From Marinobacter sp. (lineage in GTDB: Bacteria; Pseudomonadota; Gammaproteobacteria; Pseudomonadales; Oleiphilaceae), in the NCBI GenBank assembly GCA_022014155.1, contig JAKLLS010000022.1:1-36943 (forward strand): a stretch of DNA of 36,943 nt, written 5' to 3'. The position numbers and the translations under genes were made by a program. The notes beneath the pieces are model-generated. The model made no database searches. It saw only the letters and a list, made by a program, of their open reading frames with translations, and had not been told where the DNA came from. How positions within the stretch are numbered: position 1 is the first letter of the stretch; every line of letters begins with the position of its first letter. Positions 8,030 through 19,441 of the stretch are shown piece after piece.

Positions 8030-8527
<498 letters not shown>

Positions 8528-8565: not shown

Positions 8566-10158
8566 TCAGCCTTTGAGCTTGCCAGCCAGCCGGGTGCTGT
8601 TCCTGGCTGCCAGGGTATACACCGACAGCTGGGGGTTGGCACCGATGCTGGTGGGGAAGATTGAGGCGTCATGGACGCTCAGGTTGCTGACGTGGTGGTG
8701 CTCGCCAAAACCATTAACCACGGACTGTCGCGGGTCCTCACCCATGCCACAGCCACCCATCTGGTGAGCGGTGAACAACCGCACGCGATGCAATTCCATG
8801 GGCAGCTCGTCGATGGCGGCCCTGGCCTCTGACCAGCTGTTGAACCAGGGCGAGTCCAGGTGCATCAGGCGGACCTGCTCGGCGCCGGCGGCAAACTGGA
8901 TTTCCGCCATGGTGTGGAAGGCCTTGCGTAACCCTTGCCATAGGTAGTCAGTCACCGGGTAATCGAGAACCGGGCTGCCATCGTCCCGCAGGTTGACGGT
9001 TCCGCCGGGGCTGTCGGGGTGGAAGCCATCCCTCAGCAGGGCAATAACGGACTGCATCCAGGGTAGTTGCTTCAGGCTGTCCCGCTGCTCCTCGCCGTGG
9101 CCCGGTACCACACCACTGGACATCGCCGGGTGCAGGGGCGGGACTTCCAGTTTGTAGCCGGCCGGGCCATCCACGCCCTCGCGGAAATTGAACTCGTCCG
9201 AGTAAATCGACTGGGGCGCGCCGTAAAACGGATCGACTTTCTCCGGCATGCGCGCAACGGTGGCGTTCACCGGGTGGATGAATGAGCGCTTGCCGATACG
9301 ATTGTGGGGGTCGGGAATGTCTGAGCGCAGCAATAATCCGGGTGAACCAATGGCGCTGGCGGCCACCACAAAGTGCCGGGCTTTCAGGTGGACCTTCACA
9401 CCGGAGGGCGTCACGGTATCCGCGGACATGGCAGAGGCCACCAGGTGATCGATCCGGTCCTGCTTCATGACCAGCTTGTCGGCGCGCAGGCCATGGAATA
9501 ACCGGGCATCGTTATCCAGTGCGCCCGGGATGGTCGTGGTCAGGGCGCCTTGTTTGGCATTGGTGGGGCAGCCGACGCCACAGTACCCCAGGTTCCAGCA
9601 ACCCTTGACGTTGCGGGGGATCACGTTCCAGGAATACCCCAACTTGTCGCAGCCCTGGCGCAAGATGTCGTTGTTGACATTGGGATCGGTCAACCAGGGT
9701 GAAACGGTATGCCGTTCTTCGCGGCCATCGAACCAGGGTTTCATTGCCTCCGGTCTCAGGCTCTCAAGTCCGAAGTTGTCTGCCCAGTAGTTCAGGGTGG
9801 GTTCTGGTGTGCGGAAGCTGGAGGTCCAGTTGACGGTGGTTGATCCACCGACGCAGCGCCCCTGGAGAATGGCAATGGCACCGTCTTTGGTGACCCGGCT
9901 CATGCCCTCCTGGTACAGCGAGGCATAAGCCGTCAGCTCGTCCATCTTGAAATCTTTCTGGTAATACAGTCGGCCTTCCTCCACGAGGATGACGGACAGC
10001 CCGGCACGGGCCAGAATTTCGGCAGTGGTGCCGCCGCCGGCGCCGGTACCGATGATCACGACATCTGCTTCATGGGTCTGGTTGTCTGTCAGGGTGCTGG
10101 CGTCTGTGACTTTCCAGCCGGCCTCAAGGCCCCTGGCAATGCGATCGGTTAACGACAT
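8566..10158 (-). CDS. GMC-family FAD-dependent oxidoreductase (alcohol/sugar dehydrogenase type)
   Basis: FAD-binding GTGAGGGTTAEILARAGLSVILVEEG; CVGGSTTVNW; C-terminal HQMGGCGMGEDP ... FPTSIGANPQLSVYTLAARNS; contains GCWNLGYCGVGCPTNAKQG. Confidence 0.9.
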   Translation of the reverse strand: MSLTDRIARGLEAGWKVTDASTLTDNQTHEADVVIIGTGAGGGTTAEILARAGLSVILVEEGRLYYQKDFKMDELTAYASLYQEGMSRVTKDGAIAILQGRCVGGSTTVNWTSSFRTPEPTLNYWADNFGLESLRPEAMKPWFDGREERHTVSPWLTDPNVNNDILRQGCDKLGYSWNVIPRNVKGCWNLGYCGVGCPTNAKQGALTTTIPGALDNDARLFHGLRADKLVMKQDRIDHLVASAMSADTVTPSGVKVHLKARHFVVAASAIGSPGLLLRSDIPDPHNRIGKRSFIHPVNATVARMPEKVDPFYGAPQSIYSDEFNFREGVDGPAGYKLEVPPLHPAMSSGVVPGHGEEQRDSLKQLPWMQSVIALLRDGFHPDSPGGTVNLRDDGSPVLDYPVTDYLWQGLRKAFHTMAEIQFAAGAEQVRLMHLDSPWFNSWSEARAAIDELPMELHRVRLFTAHQMGGCGMGEDPRQSVVNGFGEHHHVSNLSVHDASIFPTSIGANPQLSVYTLAARNSTRLAGKLKG

Positions 10159-10189
10159 GGAAATCTCCGATAATCAGCGAGCGACAGGG

Positions 10190-10819
10190 TCAGGCGTTGT
10201 TGAACTGGGGCAGGGCGTTCATGGCCCATTCCGGTGGCCCGGCGTAGCCCGACAGGTGCCAGTGCTCGGGGTGGCCGTAAAACGCCACGTTGCTGATCTT
10301 GGTCAGGGCGATGTAGCCATTGTTGAACAGGCCAATACCGCTGGTGCGCCAGCGTTCCAGAAAGGCGCCTGCCTCTGCGGTGGTGACATTGGGCCAGCTG
10401 GACCAGACACGGGCAACGGTGACCCGGGTCAGGCCGAAGTTGAGCAGATCAAACAGTTTGCGCAGTTCCTTCTGATTGGCCGGGCCGAACCGGACCATGC
10501 CCTGGTCGATCCGCTCGATGGTGCCGGTAATCGCCTGTCGCCTTGGCTCCGGCTCTTCGGTCAAAGCCGGCCCGACAATGGCCGGTAGCAGAGCCCGGAA
10601 CAGCGCAATGTCATCTTGGGTGAGAAACTGAAATTGATAGCCAGCATCAGTCTGCGGAGTGGCCGCATCCAGACGACCCGCCGGTGTGGTTGCGCAGCCG
10701 CTGAGGCCCGCCGTGACGCTGACGGTACCGAGGAAAAAAGCGCCGCCCAGACCAGTACGCAGGAAGCTGCGTCGGTCCAGGTCGGCGAAGGTTTCCTGGG
10801 TGTGTGGGGGGTGGGGCAT
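10190..10819 (-). CDS. Tat-signal lipoprotein, probable small subunit partner of the GMC dehydrogenase
   Basis: DRRSFLRTGLGGAFFLGTVSVTAGLSGCATTPAG: Tat RRxFLR motif plus lipobox LSGC. Same strand and directly upstream of the GMC gene. Confidence 0.75.
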   Translation of the reverse strand: MPHPPHTQETFADLDRRSFLRTGLGGAFFLGTVSVTAGLSGCATTPAGRLDAATPQTDAGYQFQFLTQDDIALFRALLPAIVGPALTEEPEPRRQAITGTIERIDQGMVRFGPANQKELRKLFDLLNFGLTRVTVARVWSSWPNVTTAEAGAFLERWRTSGIGLFNNGYIALTKISNVAFYGHPEHWHLSGYAGPPEWAMNALPQFNNA

Positions 10820-10889
10820 GGTGGACTCTCTTATTGTTCTCGTTGAAAAAACGTATACCGGGCCGGCGAGGCTGCCGGCCCGGTATACA

Positions 10890-12335
10890 TCAGCGAATAA
10901 ACAGCTTGTAGACCATCTTGTGGGCAGTGGTGCCGTGAGGTGCGTAGACGTATTTTCCGCTGTTGAATTTTTGTTTGCTGAAGATGGCGCGGTGATGTGA
11001 CAGCGTCAGGAAGCCTTCCTTGCCGTGGTAATGCCCCATGCCGGAATCACCAATGCCGCCGAATGGCAGGTCGTCCTGCGCCACGTGCATAAGGGCGTCA
11101 TTAATACACATACCGCCGGAGTGGGTGTTGTCCACCACCTGTTGCTGCATGGAACGGTCGTAGCCGAAGAAATACAGGGCCAGTGGGCGCGGGCGATCGT
11201 TGATGTAGTGGATCGCCTCGTCCAGGCCGCCGTAGCTGACTACGGGGAGGATGGGGCCGAAAATCTCGTCCTGCATCACCTTCATTGCCGGGGTGGTCTT
11301 CAACACCAGGGTCAGGGGAATCTTGCGGGTGCCGTCCTTGAGGTTTTCCCGTGCCGGGTTGAGCTCGACGATCTCGGCGCCTTTCTCCCGGGCGTCGTCC
11401 AGATAACCCTGCAGCCGCTCGTACTGTCGCTCATTGATAATGGCGGTGTAGTCGTCGTTGTCCCGCAGGCTGGGGTACATTTCAGCAAAGCGGGCGCGGA
11501 ATTCGTCGACAAAGGCCTGGACCCGATCCGCAGGGCAGAGGACGTAATCCGGCGCTACACAGGTCTGGCCGGCATTGAAGGCTTTGCCAAACGCAATGCG
11601 CTGGGCAGCATCCTCCATGGGCACATCGGAGGAGACAATCGCGGGGGACTTGCCACCCAGCTCCAGGGTAACCGGCGTCAGGTTCTCCGACGCTGCCCGC
11701 ATCACCAGTTTGCCCACGGAGGTGGAGCCGGTGAATAGCAGGTGATCAAACGGGCGGCTGGAGAAATCCGCGGCGACATCCGCTTCACCGGTGATCACCG
11801 ACACCAGGTCCTCGGGGAAAGTGGACTCAATAATCTCTTTGAAAAGTGCGGAGGTGTGCGGGGTGAATTCCGACATCTTGATCATGGTACGGTTACCCGC
11901 GGCCAATGAGGCAACCAGTGGCCCCACGGCCAGATACAGCGGGTAGTTCCAGGGCACAATAACGCCGACCACGCCCTTGGGTTGGTAGTGCACCTTATTA
12001 CTGGCGGGTTGGAACAGAACGGAGACATGACGCTTCGACGGCTTCATCCAGCCGCCGAGGTTTTTCAGGGTGTAGTTGATGCCCTGAATGGACGGCATGA
12101 TCTCGGCAATCAGCGATTCGTCCTTAGAGCGGCAACTGAAATCCCGGTCAATGGCATCGGTCAGCTTGTCCTGGTTGCTCAGCAGCGCCCGTTTCAGTCG
12201 CTTCAGATTCTCCTGGCGCTCGGTCAGTGAAGGCATCGAGTTATTGCGAAATGCTTTTTTCTGATCGTCGAATACACGATGCGTGCGCTGGATCTGCTTC
12301 TTGCTTTCGGTAAGCTGGACGACACTGGCTCCCAT
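10890..12335 (-). CDS. aldehyde dehydrogenase, coniferyl aldehyde dehydrogenase-like
   Basis: PKGVVGVIVPWNYPLYL, LLFTGSTSVGKLVMRAA, VTLELGGKSPAIV, KAFNAGQTCVAPDYVL, DEIFGPILPVVSY, NDALMHVAQDDLPFGGIGDSGMGHYHGKEGF: class-3/CALDH type. Start MGASVVQ at 12335 preferred over 12365. Confidence 0.9.
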   Translation of the reverse strand: MGASVVQLTESKKQIQRTHRVFDDQKKAFRNNSMPSLTERQENLKRLKRALLSNQDKLTDAIDRDFSCRSKDESLIAEIMPSIQGINYTLKNLGGWMKPSKRHVSVLFQPASNKVHYQPKGVVGVIVPWNYPLYLAVGPLVASLAAGNRTMIKMSEFTPHTSALFKEIIESTFPEDLVSVITGEADVAADFSSRPFDHLLFTGSTSVGKLVMRAASENLTPVTLELGGKSPAIVSSDVPMEDAAQRIAFGKAFNAGQTCVAPDYVLCPADRVQAFVDEFRARFAEMYPSLRDNDDYTAIINERQYERLQGYLDDAREKGAEIVELNPARENLKDGTRKIPLTLVLKTTPAMKVMQDEIFGPILPVVSYGGLDEAIHYINDRPRPLALYFFGYDRSMQQQVVDNTHSGGMCINDALMHVAQDDLPFGGIGDSGMGHYHGKEGFLTLSHHRAIFSKQKFNSGKYVYAPHGTTAHKMVYKLFIR

Positions 12336-12427
12336 GGTACTCTCCCCTCGGGTCGCCGGATGCATGCCGGGCGCCCTGTTGTTGTTTGTGTGGTGGCGAA
12401 AAAATACTCAATTTGCGCTTGGTGGTA

Positions 12428-12456
12428 TTATTAGAGTATATACTCTAGGTAGTCAA
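12428..12456 (-). promoter_or_regulatory. predicted sigma70 promoter for the ALDH-Tat-GMC operon
   Basis: On the minus strand: TTGACT - 17 nt - TAATAA. Confidence 0.6.
12432..12447. promoter_or_regulatory. candidate TetR operator (perfect palindrome)
   Basis: TAGAGTATATACTCTA, perfect 16-bp palindrome in the divergent intergenic region, within/overlapping the predicted promoter spacer. Confidence 0.65.
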
Positions 12457-12518: not shown

Positions 12519-13220
12519 ATGAAAACCAGAGACAAGATCCTGTTATCCAGCCTGGAGTTGTTCAACGAGAGGGGTGAACGAAACGTCACCACCAATCACA
12601 TTGCTGCCCATCTGGCCATTTCTCCGGGTAACCTCTATTACCATTTCCGCAACAAGTCGGACATCATTTACGAAATCTTCCTGGAATACGAAAAGCTGGT
12701 GGATTATTACCTGGATATTCCAGAGGATCGGCCGCTGACCCTGGACGACATGATGTTTTATCTGGAATCCGTATTTGATGGGCTCTGGAGCTACCGGTTT
12801 TTTCATCGTGACCTGGAACACCTATTGGATGGTGATCGGCGATTACGCCAGGACTACCGGGAATTTACCGATCGTTGCCTGGACGCCATCAGTCGGATCT
12901 TCGAGAAGATGGCGGAAGCAGGCATTATCGAGCCCCAATCGGACGAGTTGCGTTCGGCCATGTCGCTGAACGTCTGGCTGGTCATCACCAACTGGATGGC
13001 GTTCCTGAAGACCGCCCACGCCTGCGAAGAATCCGCCAATCTCACGTTGACGGAACTCAAGCAGGGAATCTATCAGGTGTTGACCCTGGAAATTCCCTAT
13101 CTCACAGCGGCCTATCGGGAGAGAGTGCTGGCGCTGAGAGAGAAGTACCGCCCACAACTGCCGGAAGCCCGTGAGGTCGAATTGCCGGTCGGAAAAACCG
13201 TTGGGTGGAATGCGGTTTGA
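12519..13220 (+). CDS. TetR/AcrR family transcriptional regulator, divergent from the ALDH operon
   Basis: MKTRDKILLSSLELFNERGERNVTTNHIAAHLAISPGNLYYHFRNKSDIIYEIF: TetR HTH. Confidence 0.92.
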   Translation: MKTRDKILLSSLELFNERGERNVTTNHIAAHLAISPGNLYYHFRNKSDIIYEIFLEYEKLVDYYLDIPEDRPLTLDDMMFYLESVFDGLWSYRFFHRDLEHLLDGDRRLRQDYREFTDRCLDAISRIFEKMAEAGIIEPQSDELRSAMSLNVWLVITNWMAFLKTAHACEESANLTLTELKQGIYQVLTLEIPYLTAAYRERVLALREKYRPQLPEAREVELPVGKTVGWNAV

Positions 13221-13473: not shown

Positions 13474-13506
13474 ATGCCGGCACAAAAACAATCAGGAGAT
13501 TCCAAT

Positions 13507-14517
13507 ATGTTTCCGACAAGACACGCAGTTGGCCTATTTCTGGCCACGCTTGCGTTTAATGCCTTCGCCGCCGATTTCACCTTCAAGTTCCAGTCTTCAG
13601 ACCCTGCTGGTGTCAAAAACTTCGAAATTCAACAGGCATGGGCCGACCGTGTGGAATCCATGACCGGTGGCCGTGTTGAAATCGATTTGCTGCCGGTTGG
13701 CAGTGTCGTCAGCCACACCGAAACCCTTGGAGCCATGAAAATGGGGGTGTTGGACGGCCACATCTCGGTCACTGGTTATTTTTCCGGTAAGGACCCGGCG
13801 TTCGGACTGATTGGCAATACCGTGGGTGCCTGGTCCAGTCCTGATCAGCTCATCGATTACATCAACTACGGCGGCGGTTACGAGTTGATGAATGAGCTGT
13901 ATGAACCGTACGGCGTCAAGTTTGTTGGTGGTGGCGGTACCGGCCTTGAGTCGTTCGTGTCGAAAAAGCCGCTTGACGGCGTGGAGGATCTCAAGGGGCT
14001 GAAAATGCGTGCGCCCGAAGGGCTGGTGCAGTCGGTCTTTGCCGCAGCCGGTGCGTCGCCGGTCAACCTTCCCGGTTCCGAGGTTTATACCGCATTGAGC
14101 AAGGGCGTGATTGATGCGGCCGACTACACGGTGTTCTCAACCAACCATGAGGCCGGCCTGAACGACATTGCCTCACATCCCGTCAATCCGGGGTTTCACT
14201 CGCTGCCCCTGCTGGAAATCGCCATGGGTCTCAAGGCGTGGGAAAAGCTGCCGGAAGACATTCAGGTCATCATGACGGTGTCCGCCAGGGACTTTGCGCA
14301 GGACATCAGCACGCAACTGGCGATGGCTGATCGGGAGGCCGTCAATGAGGCCCGTGCCAATCCGGAGATTACCATCCACGACTGGTCCGCCGAGGAGCGC
14401 CGCAAATTCCGCGCGATTGCCCGCGATCAATGGAAGGTCTACGCAGAGCAGTCCCCCAACGCCGGCAAAGTGTACCAGTCGGTCACCGCATACCTGGAGT
14501 CCCAGGGCCTTCTCTGA
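13507..14517 (+). CDS. dctP: TRAP transporter substrate-binding protein (DctP family), predicted gluconate
   Basis: Signal peptide MFPTRHAVGLFLATLAFNAFAA; FKFQSSDPAGVKNFEIQQAWADRVESMTGGRVEIDLLPVGSVVSHTETLGAMKMGVLDG: DctP family. ATG at 13507 with RBS CAGGAG. Confidence 0.9.
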   Translation: MFPTRHAVGLFLATLAFNAFAADFTFKFQSSDPAGVKNFEIQQAWADRVESMTGGRVEIDLLPVGSVVSHTETLGAMKMGVLDGHISVTGYFSGKDPAFGLIGNTVGAWSSPDQLIDYINYGGGYELMNELYEPYGVKFVGGGGTGLESFVSKKPLDGVEDLKGLKMRAPEGLVQSVFAAAGASPVNLPGSEVYTALSKGVIDAADYTVFSTNHEAGLNDIASHPVNPGFHSLPLLEIAMGLKAWEKLPEDIQVIMTVSARDFAQDISTQLAMADREAVNEARANPEITIHDWSAEERRKFRAIARDQWKVYAEQSPNAGKVYQSVTAYLESQGLL

Positions 14518-14541
14518 GTAGCAGGTTCCCTCGATATCAGA

Positions 14542-14568
14542 CTCCGGGCGCCCTGGCGGGACCCGGAG
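14542..14568 (+). other. intercistronic GC-rich hairpin between dctP and dctQ
   Basis: CTCCGGG-CGCCCTGGCGGGA-CCCGGAG, with a small inner CGC/GCG stem. Confidence 0.7.
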
Positions 14569-14581
14569 CGAGGAGTTCATT

Positions 14582-15112
14582 ATGTCCGTTGAAAATAACG
14601 AAGATGTGGGATTCACCTGGCTGGACAGGGCCATCGTTTGGCTGGGTCAGAAACTGAGCCTGGTGTTTGCGGTGATTGTTCTGGTGTCTTTTTACGAGAT
14701 CATTCGCCGCTATGCATTTGATGCGCCGACACTCTGGGTACACGAAACCGTGACCTTCGCAGGCGCCACACTGTTTGTCCTTGGTGGGCTGTATGCCCTG
14801 GCCACCGATCGCCATGTCCGCATCGTACTGGTCTATGACGCGGTCTCGCCCCGCGCCCAGCGCTGGTTGCGGGTGGTCCATCACCTGCTGGGGCTTGCCT
14901 TTTGCGGCATGCTGCTGTTTGCGAGCTGGTCAATGGCGACAGAAGCGGTGCTGGCACCTTGGGGAGACTGGCGCCTTGAGACATCCGGCTCGGCCTGGAA
15001 TCCGCCGTTCCCCGCGTTCCTGAAAGTGATCATTCTGGTGGCTGTTGCCGTCATGACCCTTCAGTTTCTGTTGCACCTGGTGCGCGATCTCCGTGGCAAG
15101 GGAGGTCTCTGA
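14582..15112 (+). CDS. dctQ: TRAP transporter small permease (DctQ)
   Basis: Four hydrophobic helices; SFYEIIRRYAFDAPTLWVHETVTFAGATLFVLGGLYALATDRHVRIVLVYD: DctQ-like. Confidence 0.9.
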   Translation: MSVENNEDVGFTWLDRAIVWLGQKLSLVFAVIVLVSFYEIIRRYAFDAPTLWVHETVTFAGATLFVLGGLYALATDRHVRIVLVYDAVSPRAQRWLRVVHHLLGLAFCGMLLFASWSMATEAVLAPWGDWRLETSGSAWNPPFPAFLKVIILVAVAVMTLQFLLHLVRDLRGKGGL

Positions 15113-16428
15113 TGTTTGAACTGGCTTCCCTCGGCATCGGTTATGGCAGTCTGGTCATGCTGGTCATGCTGATAGTGCTGCTGCTCACCGGCATGCAGCT
15201 GGCCTTCGCCACGGGTCTGGTTGCCCTGGTCTTCGCCTTGGGCTGGTTCGGCCCGGATGCGTTGCCTATCGTCAGCAGTCGTCTTTACAGCTTCATTGGT
15301 AACTATGTGTTCCTGGCGGTGCCGATGTTCGTGTTGATGGCCTCGCTGCTGGACCATTCCGGCATCGCCCGTGATCTGTTCGACGCCATGGCTCGCCTGG
15401 GGCGCAAGCTTCGTGGCGGCGTGGCCATACAGACGTTGGTGGTGGCGGTGATTCTGGCCTCCATGTCTGGTGTTATAGGTGGCGAGACGGTGCTTCTGGG
15501 TATCCTGGCGCTGCCGCAAATGCTGCGCCTGGGCTATGACCGCAAACTGGCCATTGGCACCACCTGTGCCGGTGGGGCGCTCGGCACCATGTTGCCGCCC
15601 AGTATCGTGCTGATCATATACGGGCTGACGGCCAATGTGTCCATTGGCGACCTGTTCAAGGGGGCTTTCGCGCCCGCACTGTTGTTGGCACTGCTTTATA
15701 TGGGTTATGTCCTGATCCGTGTCTGGCTGAAGCCGGAGATGGCACCACTGCCTTCGGATCAGGATGCGCCCGAGACCCCGGCACCGAATTTTTTCAAGGC
15801 GTTGTTGTTTCCGCTGCTTTCGGTCGTGGTGGTGCTGGGTAGTATTTATGGCGGCGTGGCCTCGGTCACCGAGGCGTCGGCCCTAGGTGTTATGGGGATC
15901 GCCATCAGTACCTGGATTCGTGGGGAGTTGTCGCTGGCCATGGTGCGCAAGGCTACCATCAGCACGCTGCGGGTATGTGGCATGATTATCTGGATCGGGA
16001 TTGGTGCAACTGCGTTGGTCGGTGTCTACAACCTCATGGGCGGTATCGATTTCGTCCGCGACATGGTCTTTGCCGTCAGTGGTGGCCATGGCCTGGGCAC
16101 CATCCTGTTCATGATGTTGATTCTGCTCATCCTTGGCATGTTCCTGGACTGGGTGGGTGTCGCGCTGCTGACCATGCCGATCTTCGTGCCCATCGTGACA
16201 GAGCTGGGGTACAGCCCGATCTGGTTCGGGGTGGTGTTCTGTATGAACATGCAAGTGTCCTTCCTGTCGCCTCCATTTGGGCCGGCGGCGTTCTATCTCA
16301 AGACGGTGACGCCGAAGGACATTTCCCTGGGTGAGATCTTCCGCGCCCTGCTGCCATTCATCGCACTCCAGGTAGTGGCTCTGGGGCTGCTGATTGCGTT
16401 CCCTCAACTGGCGTTATGGTGGCAGTGA
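15112..16428 (+). CDS. dctM: TRAP transporter large permease (DctM)
   Basis: VFLAVPMFVLMASLLDHSGIARDLFDAM, GGALGTMLPPSIVLIIYGLTANVSIGDLFKGAFAPALLLALLY, FLDWVGVALLTMPIFVPIV: DctM. Confidence 0.95.
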   Translation: MFELASLGIGYGSLVMLVMLIVLLLTGMQLAFATGLVALVFALGWFGPDALPIVSSRLYSFIGNYVFLAVPMFVLMASLLDHSGIARDLFDAMARLGRKLRGGVAIQTLVVAVILASMSGVIGGETVLLGILALPQMLRLGYDRKLAIGTTCAGGALGTMLPPSIVLIIYGLTANVSIGDLFKGAFAPALLLALLYMGYVLIRVWLKPEMAPLPSDQDAPETPAPNFFKALLFPLLSVVVVLGSIYGGVASVTEASALGVMGIAISTWIRGELSLAMVRKATISTLRVCGMIIWIGIGATALVGVYNLMGGIDFVRDMVFAVSGGHGLGTILFMMLILLILGMFLDWVGVALLTMPIFVPIVTELGYSPIWFGVVFCMNMQVSFLSPPFGPAAFYLKTVTPKDISLGEIFRALLPFIALQVVALGLLIAFPQLALWWQ

Positions 16429-16429
16429 T

Positions 16430-16948
16430 ATGACGGCGTTAAAAGTGATCGTAATGGGGGTGTCCGGATGCGGTAAGAGTCTCACCGGCACCATGCTTGC
16501 CAGCGAATTGGGGGTCCGGTTTTGCGATGCGGACGATTATCACAGTCCTGCCAATGTAGAAAAAATGGCGGCGGGCATTCCGCTGACTGACGAGGACCGG
16601 CGGGGCTGGCTGGATGATCTCGCGGAGCTGATCCGGCGGGAGGAGGGTGGCTTGGTGCTGGCCTGCTCGGCGCTGAAGCGTTGCTACCGGGCGCGCCTTC
16701 TGGACTGCAATCCAGAGGCACGTTTCGTCTACCTCAAGGGGGATTTTGACACCATTTGGGCCCGGCATTCCAGGCGAACGGACCATTACTTTAATGGTCA
16801 TGCCATGCTGGAGAGCCAGTTTCAATTGCTGGAGGAGCCGGCCCCTGACGAAAACGCCATTGTCGTGGATGTGTCGGGGACGCCTGAGCAGATCATCAGG
16901 CAGTGCCTTGCCGGGCTTGGCCTGAGGAAAGGAAATGTCCGGAACTGA
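16430..16948 (+). CDS. gntK: gluconokinase
   Basis: VIVMGVSGCGKSLTGTMLASELGVRFCDADDYHSPANVEKMAAGIPLTDEDRRGWL...CSALKRCYRARLL: GntK. ATG at 16430 preferred over the track start at 16394. Confidence 0.95.
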   Translation: MTALKVIVMGVSGCGKSLTGTMLASELGVRFCDADDYHSPANVEKMAAGIPLTDEDRRGWLDDLAELIRREEGGLVLACSALKRCYRARLLDCNPEARFVYLKGDFDTIWARHSRRTDHYFNGHAMLESQFQLLEEPAPDENAIVVDVSGTPEQIIRQCLAGLGLRKGNVRN

Positions 16949-17004
16949 TTTGGTGGCCTGCTCGCGGGTATGATAGACAACTTTAATCATGACTGGAGTC
17001 GTAG

Positions 17005-18003
17005 ATGGTAAAGAACAGGCGTCCTACTTTGCAGGATATTGCCGATCGGGTCGGAGCGACCAAGATGACCGTCAGCCGGTGTCTGCGGGGCGCGGATAAC
17101 GTTTCTGAGCCCATGCGGGAGCGAATCTTTGCCGAGGCTGAAGCACTGGGCTATATCCCCAACCGTGCTCCGGATCTGCTTTCCAAGTCCACCAGCCATG
17201 CGATCGGTGTCTTGTTGCCGTCACTGACCAACCAGGTCTTTGCGGATGTCATCAAGGGGGTGGAGTCGGTCACCGAGCCGGCGGGGTACCACCTGATGCT
17301 GGCGCACTACGGATACAGTCCCGAAATTGAGGAGCGCAGTCTGTCCTCGCTGCTGTCCTATAATGTCGATGGCGTCATCCTGTCTGAGAGTCAACATACC
17401 GATCGTACTCTGAGAATGCTGCAAACTGCCGGGGTGCCGACGGTGGAAATCATGGACACGCACACGGCACCGTTTGAGCAGGCTGTGGGATTCGACAACG
17501 TCAGTGCCGCCTACGATATGGTGCGTGAAATGATCCGGCTTGGTCGCCGGAGGGTGGTCTATCTTGCGGTCCGGCTGGATGCCCGCACGCTCCAGCGTCA
17601 GGAGGGCTATAACCGGGCCATGGAGGAGGAGGACCTGACTCCGGTAACGCTCCGCAGTGAGCAACGTTCGTCCTTCAGTGTGGGTGCCACCCTGATGGCG
17701 CGGATACTGGAGGAGAATCCGGACACCGATGGCATTTTCTGCACGAATGATGACGTTGCCATCGGGGCGTTTTTCGAGTGCCAGCGCCGGGGCATCCCCG
17801 TGCCGCAGCGAATTGCCATCGCCGGCTTTCACGGCCACGATGTGGGGCGCGTTATGGTTCCGCCACTGGCAAGTGTGATCACGCCACGGGAGCAGGTGGG
17901 GCAGCGAGCCGCTGAAGAGCTGATTGCGCGCCTGGGTGGCGCGGCTATCAGCGATCAGCGAATTGACCTGGGATACCGGATTGAGCGGGGCGGAACTCTC
18001 TGA
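17005..18003 (+). CDS. gntR: LacI-family gluconate regulator GntR
   Basis: RPTLQDIADRVGATKMTVSRCLRGADNVSEPMRERI...LGYIPNRAPDLLSKSTSHAIGVLLPSLTNQVFADVIKGVESV...GFHGHDVGRVMVPPLASVITPRE: very close to E. coli GntR. Confidence 0.95.
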   Translation: MVKNRRPTLQDIADRVGATKMTVSRCLRGADNVSEPMRERIFAEAEALGYIPNRAPDLLSKSTSHAIGVLLPSLTNQVFADVIKGVESVTEPAGYHLMLAHYGYSPEIEERSLSSLLSYNVDGVILSESQHTDRTLRMLQTAGVPTVEIMDTHTAPFEQAVGFDNVSAAYDMVREMIRLGRRRVVYLAVRLDARTLQRQEGYNRAMEEEDLTPVTLRSEQRSSFSVGATLMARILEENPDTDGIFCTNDDVAIGAFFECQRRGIPVPQRIAIAGFHGHDVGRVMVPPLASVITPREQVGQRAAEELIARLGGAAISDQRIDLGYRIERGGTL

Positions 18004-18708: not shown

Positions 18709-18832
18709 GCTACACCAATTCCGGGCAGCACGCTGAGCGTTGCTGCTGACCAGCCCCGGTTTGTGCCTTTCGGGCCAGTGCCTGCCGGCTGCATAACGAA
18801 GAATACTTTTGGATGAGAGAAGCGGAGCGAGC

Positions 18833-19441
18833 ATGAAAAAACTGATCGCAGGAGTTGTTCTCGGTGTTGGCCTCACAGCGATGGCACACGGGGCTGGAGA
18901 TCCTGAAGCAGGCAAGGAAAACGCAGCGGTTTGTGCCGGTTGTCACGGTGCAGGTGGTGCCAAGCCAGTAATGGCGGCATACCCCAAGCTGTCCGGGCTG
19001 GGCGAGAAATATCTGTACCAGCAGCTGTCAGCCATCAAAAATGGTGACCGTCAGATCGCAGAGATGACCGGGCTACTGGACAACATGTCTGACGAGGATC
19101 TGCAGGATCTGGCTGCCTACTTCAACGATCAGGATATGGTGGTTAATCAGGCCGATCCGGAGCTTATTGAACAGGGGCAGGCGTTGTATCGTGGTGGTAA
19201 CCTGGCGTCTGGTGTGCCGGCTTGTTCCGGTTGCCACAACCCTCAAGGTAAGGGCAACGAGCCAGCGGGCTTCCCGCGTCTCGGTGGCCAGCAAGCCGCC
19301 TACATTGAGAAGCAACTGAAAGCCTACCGGGATGGTGAGCGGAATGGCTCCGCAAACGCCTCCATCATGATGGACGTTGCTGCCAAGCTGACCGACTCGG
19401 AAATCGAGGCAGTGGCCAATTATGTTTCCGGCCTGAACTGA
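18833..19441 (+). CDS. diheme cytochrome c4
   Basis: Signal peptide MKKLIAGVVLGVGLTAMAHGA; two CxxCH motifs (CAGCH, CSGCH) in tandem domains; c4-like PKLSGLGEKYLYQQLSAIKNGDR and PRLGGQQAAYIEKQLKAYRDGER. Confidence 0.93.
   Translation: MKKLIAGVVLGVGLTAMAHGAGDPEAGKENAAVCAGCHGAGGAKPVMAAYPKLSGLGEKYLYQQLSAIKNGDRQIAEMTGLLDNMSDEDLQDLAAYFNDQDMVVNQADPELIEQGQALYRGGNLASGVPACSGCHNPQGKGNEPAGFPRLGGQQAAYIEKQLKAYRDGERNGSANASIMMDVAAKLTDSEIEAVANYVSGLN

Follow-up and report, generated by a model that had tools for sequence, protein, structure and literature searches.

A Marinobacter laoCBA–laoR locus with a predicted iron–sulfur alcohol dehydrogenase and a palindrome that recurs at fatty acyl-CoA reductase promoters

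We analysed a 36,943-nucleotide stretch of DNA from Marinobacter sp. (class Gammaproteobacteria; assembly GCA_022014155.1, contig JAKLLS010000022.1, positions 1 to 36,943; hereafter the window), which carries the genes of a LaoABCR-type alcohol oxidation system. Three open reading frames on the minus strand encode a GMC oxidoreductase (LaoA), a protein with a twin-arginine translocation (Tat) signal (LaoB) and an aldehyde dehydrogenase (LaoC), and a gene for a TetR-family regulator (laoR) diverges from them (Table 1). Pfam searches matched LaoA to GMC_oxred_N (E = 7.9e-50) and GMC_oxred_C (E = 8.8e-24), and LaoC to Aldedh (E = 5e-90). An earlier note on this DNA, made from its letters, had described the three same-strand genes, with a GMC protein that has no signal peptide and bears a C-x5-C-x3-C motif; both descriptions hold, the motif being formed by C187, C193 and C197. 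The divergent laoR and a palindrome between laoR and laoC were absent from that note.

Table 1 Features of the lao locus and related sites (identity, % amino acids: P. laurylsulfativorans AP3_22 / M. nauticus).
Feature	Position	Strand	Identity	Description
laoA	8566-10158	-	57 / 81	GMC-type flavin adenine dinucleotide (FAD) dehydrogenase, catalytic subunit, 530 residues, signal peptide absent
C187-x5-C193-x3-C197	9568-9600	-		CWNLGYCGVGC; predicted [3Fe-4S] ligands of LaoA
laoB	10190-10819	-	33 / 72	small Tat lipoprotein subunit ('hitchhiker'), 209 residues
Twin-arginine signal (R16 R17) to lipobox cysteine (C41)	10697-10774	-		DRRSFLRTG and LSGC, seen in the sequence
laoC	10890-12335 (start MGASVV); longer reading frame to 12365	-	59 / 92	aldehyde dehydrogenase, apparently cytoplasmic
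Predicted laoC promoter	12427-12456	-		-35 TTGACT, 18-bp spacer, -10 AATAAT; 10/12 in consensus scan
Perfect 16-bp palindrome	12432-12447	.		TAGAGTATATACTCTA; predicted LaoR operator overlapping laoC promoter spacer
laoR	12519-13220	+	47 / 86	TetR-family regulator divergent from laoCBA; TetR_N E = 2.8e-11, PF13972 E = 1.6e-42
Diheme cytochrome c (c4 type)	18809-19441	+		weak candidate electron acceptor of LaoA
Fatty acyl-CoA reductase sites, same genome	C162:18916-18964			two lao-related sites about 140-180 bp upstream of the reductase gene

Identities of the four proteins were determined against Marinobacter nauticus, the present species name of M. hydrocarbonoclasticus, and against Pseudomonas laurylsulfativorans AP3_22, through which the comparison with Pseudomonas was made (no PAO1 sequence was among the loci). 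The AP3_22 cluster has been designated a laoABCR homologue (PMC6107682). The window derives from a Marinobacter near to M. lipolyticus; its LaoA was 97% identical to LaoA of M. lipolyticus SM19, and its genome holds one copy of the laoA orthologue. The order laoC-laoB-laoA with divergent laoR was kept in most of 101 loci, including nearly all of those from Marinobacter and Pseudomonas, save at contig ends and in a distant subgroup that lacks laoC and laoR. Matching gene organisation has been published for Oleispira antarctica (where it is induced by tetradecane), Alcanivorax, Thalassolituus and M. hydrocarbonoclasticus SP17 (PMC7318663). Judged by orthology and gene order, the window locus is the Marinobacter version of the LaoABCR long-chain-alcohol oxidation system; since this system was previously described as LaoABCR, Marinobacter included (PMC7318663), the locus is not a new find.

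The cysteine triad of LaoA was found in 100 of 100 extracted sequences, and all three cysteines were invariant in a 38-sequence alignment (47–91% identity to the window LaoA); the spacing is therefore not due to chance. Burkholderia FAD-dependent glucose dehydrogenase (BcGDH) binds its [3Fe-4S] cluster through Cys212, Cys218 and Cys222 (PMC6719666), that is, with equal spacing, as the earlier note had stated. The LaoA triad shares its alignment columns with the cysteine cluster of GMC proteins whose genes neighbour those of Gluconate_2-dh3 small subunits; three BetA-like GMC proteins of the same genome have no cysteines there. His465 and Asn508 were also invariant in the alignment, and the 43 residues between them equal the distance between H1147 and N1190, positions altered in solved fructose dehydrogenase variants. 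A LaoA profile run against PDB sequences gave no match at a strict threshold of 1e-20, and at a relaxed threshold the best match was fructose dehydrogenase, with C197 opposite its C226. A search of PF12318 in the class returned a single weak match. By homology, C187, C193 and C197 are predicted to hold a [3Fe-4S] cluster.

We also compared a LaoB–LaoA structural model with the PDB. The model derives from a natural locus in a metagenome-assembled genome of M. antarcticus, in which both genes share a frame and the intergenic stop was read through to give one linked chain. Fructose dehydrogenase large subunits occupied ranks 1–7, and the BcGDH alpha subunit ranks 8 and 12. A single reading frame joining LaoB and LaoA at one locus (L095; this and similar labels are our own handles) was rejected as a true fusion and judged to be a frameshift in a metagenome-assembled genome.

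In LaoB, the arginine pair of the Tat signal was invariant in 39 sequences, and the LSGC lipobox was conserved in Marinobacter and Pseudomonas and lost in the distant subgroup; the lipobox suggests that LaoB would be tethered to the membrane. LaoB matched no Pfam or NCBIfam family, scoring under the Pfam gathering score for Gluconate_2-dh3 (PF13618). Profile–profile comparison with the Gluconate_2-dh3 set nevertheless gave a probability of 97 for full-length LaoB and of 89.6 (E = 1.9e-6) for mature LaoB alone, against 0.1–0.4 for the controls (column-shuffled, reversed and LaoR profiles). Furthermore, the conserved C-terminal W...GYPGPP of LaoB corresponds to the W...GFPG tail of Gluconate_2-dh3. 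The distant LaoAB pairs (L049–L052, L055) occur in other Gammaproteobacteria, without adjoining laoC or laoR and without a lipobox. A second pair in the window's genome (C5:12401-14282; L138:4156-6304) consists of a Tat small subunit (PF13618) and a GMC protein with CQVTGFCMQGC, and has no adjoining cytochrome gene.

Between laoR and laoC lies the palindrome TAGAGTATATACTCTA, for which 0.01 perfect 16-bp occurrences are expected by chance in the window. As the number of sites returned by the promoter scan was near chance level, support for the predicted laoC promoter was taken from this conserved palindrome inside it. A motif of the TAGAGTATATACTCTA type was present in 64 of 90 laoR–laoC intergenic regions; some Pseudomonas regions have TAGAGCAATTGCTCTA in its place. 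At the genome level, TAGAGTAWWTACTCTA occurred in 55 of 61 Marinobacter genomes, in one copy in all but three, which have two copies, and the reversed control gave 0. A literature search on LaoR palindromes gave no relevant report. The window LaoR, which has 47% identity with its P. laurylsulfativorans counterpart, probably binds the palindrome. Another palindrome was observed elsewhere in the same genome (C11:5467); loose-pattern counts were near the control.

The second TAGAGTAWWTACTCTA copy lies, in all three two-copy genomes, about 180 bp upstream of the gene for a 661-residue protein of the fatty acyl-CoA reductase (FAR) type. We assigned this name from two Pfam domains and from a presumed resemblance to the reductase Maqu_2220 of M. 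aquaeolei VT8. All 30 FAR promoters tested first carry a lao-type site, 27 of them two AGAG-N6-CTCT sites spaced 33–34 bp apart; among further promoters, the site is present in two and absent from the four most divergent, giving 32 of 36 Marinobacter promoters overall. Because lao-related tandem sites precede FAR in these 32 promoters, LaoR may couple fatty-alcohol synthesis with fatty-alcohol oxidation. We hold the chances to be even that LaoR controls both laoCBA, through one perfect palindrome, and FAR, through two mostly imperfect palindromes 33–34 bp apart, in Marinobacter.

Another TetR regulator might instead bind the FAR sites, leaving no LaoR link between synthesis and oxidation, and we regard this as a real possibility that falls somewhat short of even. 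A candidate for such a regulator is a LaoR paralogue of 35% identity that adjoins a phasin-like gene (C152:38593-39207; L215, L218); in addition, the majority of FAR sites fall short of the lao site in symmetry, and one genome (G589) has FAR sites without the exact lao palindrome. However, the region of the paralogue itself has no lao-type palindrome nearby, and the FAR site of the window's own genome, TAGAGTAATTACTCTA, recurs letter for letter as the lao intergenic palindrome of two other loci (L053 and L134). Acyl-CoA esters have been reported as inducers in the P. aeruginosa lao system (PMC10779009). If LaoR does act at both promoters, its regulon would comprise opposing steps, alcohol oxidation on the one hand and alcohol formation from acyl-CoA for wax esters on the other, and with an acyl-CoA-type inducer as in P. 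aeruginosa a single switch would set the storage of fatty alcohols against their use.

For the locus as a whole, we propose, with a probability of about 0.88, a laoCBA operon with a divergent repressor gene, laoR, whose products LaoA and LaoB form an exported iron–sulfur enzyme oxidising long-chain alcohols. LaoA would take up FAD and a [3Fe-4S] cluster, ligated by the triad, as it folds in the cytoplasm, bind LaoB and be exported with it through the Tat pathway by means of the LaoB signal, after which lipidation of LaoB at C41 would tether the complex. In the periplasm, LaoA would use the GMC pair His465/Asn508 to oxidise long-chain primary alcohols to the aldehydes, passing electrons from FAD through the cluster to an unlinked respiratory acceptor, be it a periplasmic cytochrome or a quinone. 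The lipophilic aldehyde could cross or partition in the membrane, and cytoplasmic LaoC would oxidise it to the fatty acid. LaoR would repress the operon by occupying the palindrome between the -35 and -10 elements. Published work on P. aeruginosa describes a LaoAB complex, its Tat dependence, a long-chain alcohol substrate and acyl-CoA-linked induction, and the title of Panasia 2021, as cited in PMC10779009, names LaoAB a Tat-dependent dehydrogenase. Together with the evidence above, this work supports the proposal of the earlier note that the locus encodes an exported, Tat-partner-dependent alcohol dehydrogenase of the iron–sulfur GMC type with its own aldehyde dehydrogenase.

Several results weigh against this reading. 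Deletion of laoAB homologues in P. putida left growth on C16 and C20 alcohols unimpaired (PMC13291428). A Foldseek search of the PDB with a LaoB model gave no small subunit of BcGDH or fructose dehydrogenase among the 50 matches listed, none of which had E ≤ 0.001, and a LaoB profile run against PDB sequences found Tat signals and noise, again with neither small subunit. Because both PDB searches missed the relation, we grade LaoB as probably a remote homologue of the Gluconate_2-dh3 hitchhikers and not as a proven member of that family. The structure prediction of the complex, which the earlier note had suggested, did place fructose dehydrogenase and then BcGDH as the closest folds, but the LaoB–LaoA model is mediocre (pLDDT, the predicted local distance difference test, 73.7; pTM, the predicted template modelling score, 0.77), with the cysteine loop below a pLDDT of 50.

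The triad could also be structural or hold another type of cluster, with FAD handing its electrons straight to quinone or to a soluble acceptor. Some details fit such a route: Trp188 stands where BcGDH has C213, the cysteine of its interfacial disulfide, and the position aligned, albeit weakly, with the covalent-FAD histidine is not His in LaoA. Moreover, two cholesterol-oxidase-like GMC proteins of the window's genome (C210 and C222; L034, L033) carry C-x2-C-x2-C-x3-C in the triad columns, so cysteine clusters are not unique to hitchhiker enzymes and the triad alone is no proof of export; these two may be iron–sulfur GMC proteins of another kind. This alternative is nevertheless unlikely, given that the invariant triad matches proven [3Fe-4S] enzymes in both spacing and columns, and that those enzymes are the closest folds.

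No triheme cytochrome subunit lay beside lao in the loci read, and the sampled loci had no adjoining heme genes except a diheme cytochrome and, in a few cases, isolated CxxCH matches within reading frames. The earlier note was right that no multiheme cytochrome adjoins the genes: none lies within at least 4 kb to each side. Farther off, the window does encode a diheme cytochrome c (Table 1). A genome search for an unlinked cytochrome partner, as proposed in the earlier note, gave no triheme subunit in the window's genome (82% complete), where the best match to a triheme subunit was a one-heme protein adjoining a cytochrome oxidase subunit I-like gene. An engB–cytochrome c4 pair adjoins laoR in 46 of 72 full-length loci, and directly so in most Marinobacter; in the window it lies at 18.0–19.4 kb, and genes for a TRAP transporter and for a regulator of the LacI type (13474-18003) stand between it and laoR, looking like an insertion. 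The cytochrome c4 is a weak candidate acceptor, and its adjacency to laoR perhaps mere old engB–c4 synteny. As for the substrate, a role in oxidising aromatic (coniferyl- or benzyl-type) alcohols is very improbable: among NCBIfam models, LaoC scores highest with the benzaldehyde dehydrogenase MdlD, under the cut-off of that model, but the orthologues are tied to C12–C24 alcohols and alkane growth, and a lao-type palindrome stands ahead of FAR too.

Other observations concern the surroundings and distribution of lao. A reading frame at 8030-8512, on the same strand and 53 bp downstream of laoA, is possibly co-transcribed; it is coaD-like (phosphopantetheine adenylyltransferase). In another Marinobacter genome (G138; L037:4713-4978), laoB, laoC, laoR and the palindrome are kept and laoA is reduced to remnants (residues 1–23 and 454–528), by natural deletion or through an assembly fault. 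Relatives of laoA on plasmids were merely distant GMC proteins of less than 60% identity.

Working without tools, the earlier reader thus arrived at the layout of a dehydrogenase that is known from experiments. The present analysis adds the prediction of an iron–sulfur cluster in LaoA, the kinship of LaoB and the palindrome common to lao and FAR promoters. Testable proposals are that every LaoA enzyme holds an iron–sulfur cluster, that LaoB is a divergent relation of the Tat hitchhikers, and that electrons leave by a route without a heme subunit. The enzyme itself is ordinary; what is novel and can be put to the test is the regulatory link, in that the predicted LaoR operator also marks the gene of a fatty acyl-CoA reductase, an enzyme type that engineers use to make fatty alcohols.

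Among known systems, gluconate 2-dehydrogenase-type pairs (PF13618 with GMC, including C5:12401-14282) resemble LaoAB in having a Tat small subunit beside a GMC protein and the same cysteine columns; their cysteine spacing varies (C-x5-C-x3-C or C-x2-C-x2-C-x4-C), and LaoB, unlike their small subunits, lies below Pfam detection. Burkholderia FAD-dependent glucose dehydrogenase and Gluconobacter fructose dehydrogenase share with LaoAB a signal-less GMC subunit, C-x5-C-x3-C, His and Asn 43 residues apart and a Tat small subunit. In contrast to both, the lao system has no triheme cytochrome subunit, LaoA has neither the inter-subunit disulfide cysteine nor a His aligned with the covalent-FAD His, the small subunit is only remotely related and, by its lipobox, presumably lipidated, and the substrate differs. 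The cluster of M. hydrocarbonoclasticus SP17 (MARHY_3473-3476), reported in 2020 (PMC7318663), has the organisation of the window locus. P. aeruginosa LaoABCR (PA0364-PA0367; Panasia and Philipp 2018, Panasia et al. 2019, 2021) is alike in gene content and order, the divergent TetR gene, a Tat signal on LaoB only, a GMC-type LaoA and an aldehyde dehydrogenase LaoC. Compared with Pseudomonas, in which the loci examined have TAGAGCAATTGCTCTA, TAGAGTAATTACTCTA or no clear palindrome, Marinobacter has TAGAGTATATACTCTA and a longer LaoB, which is extended at its C terminus and has an insert following the lipobox.

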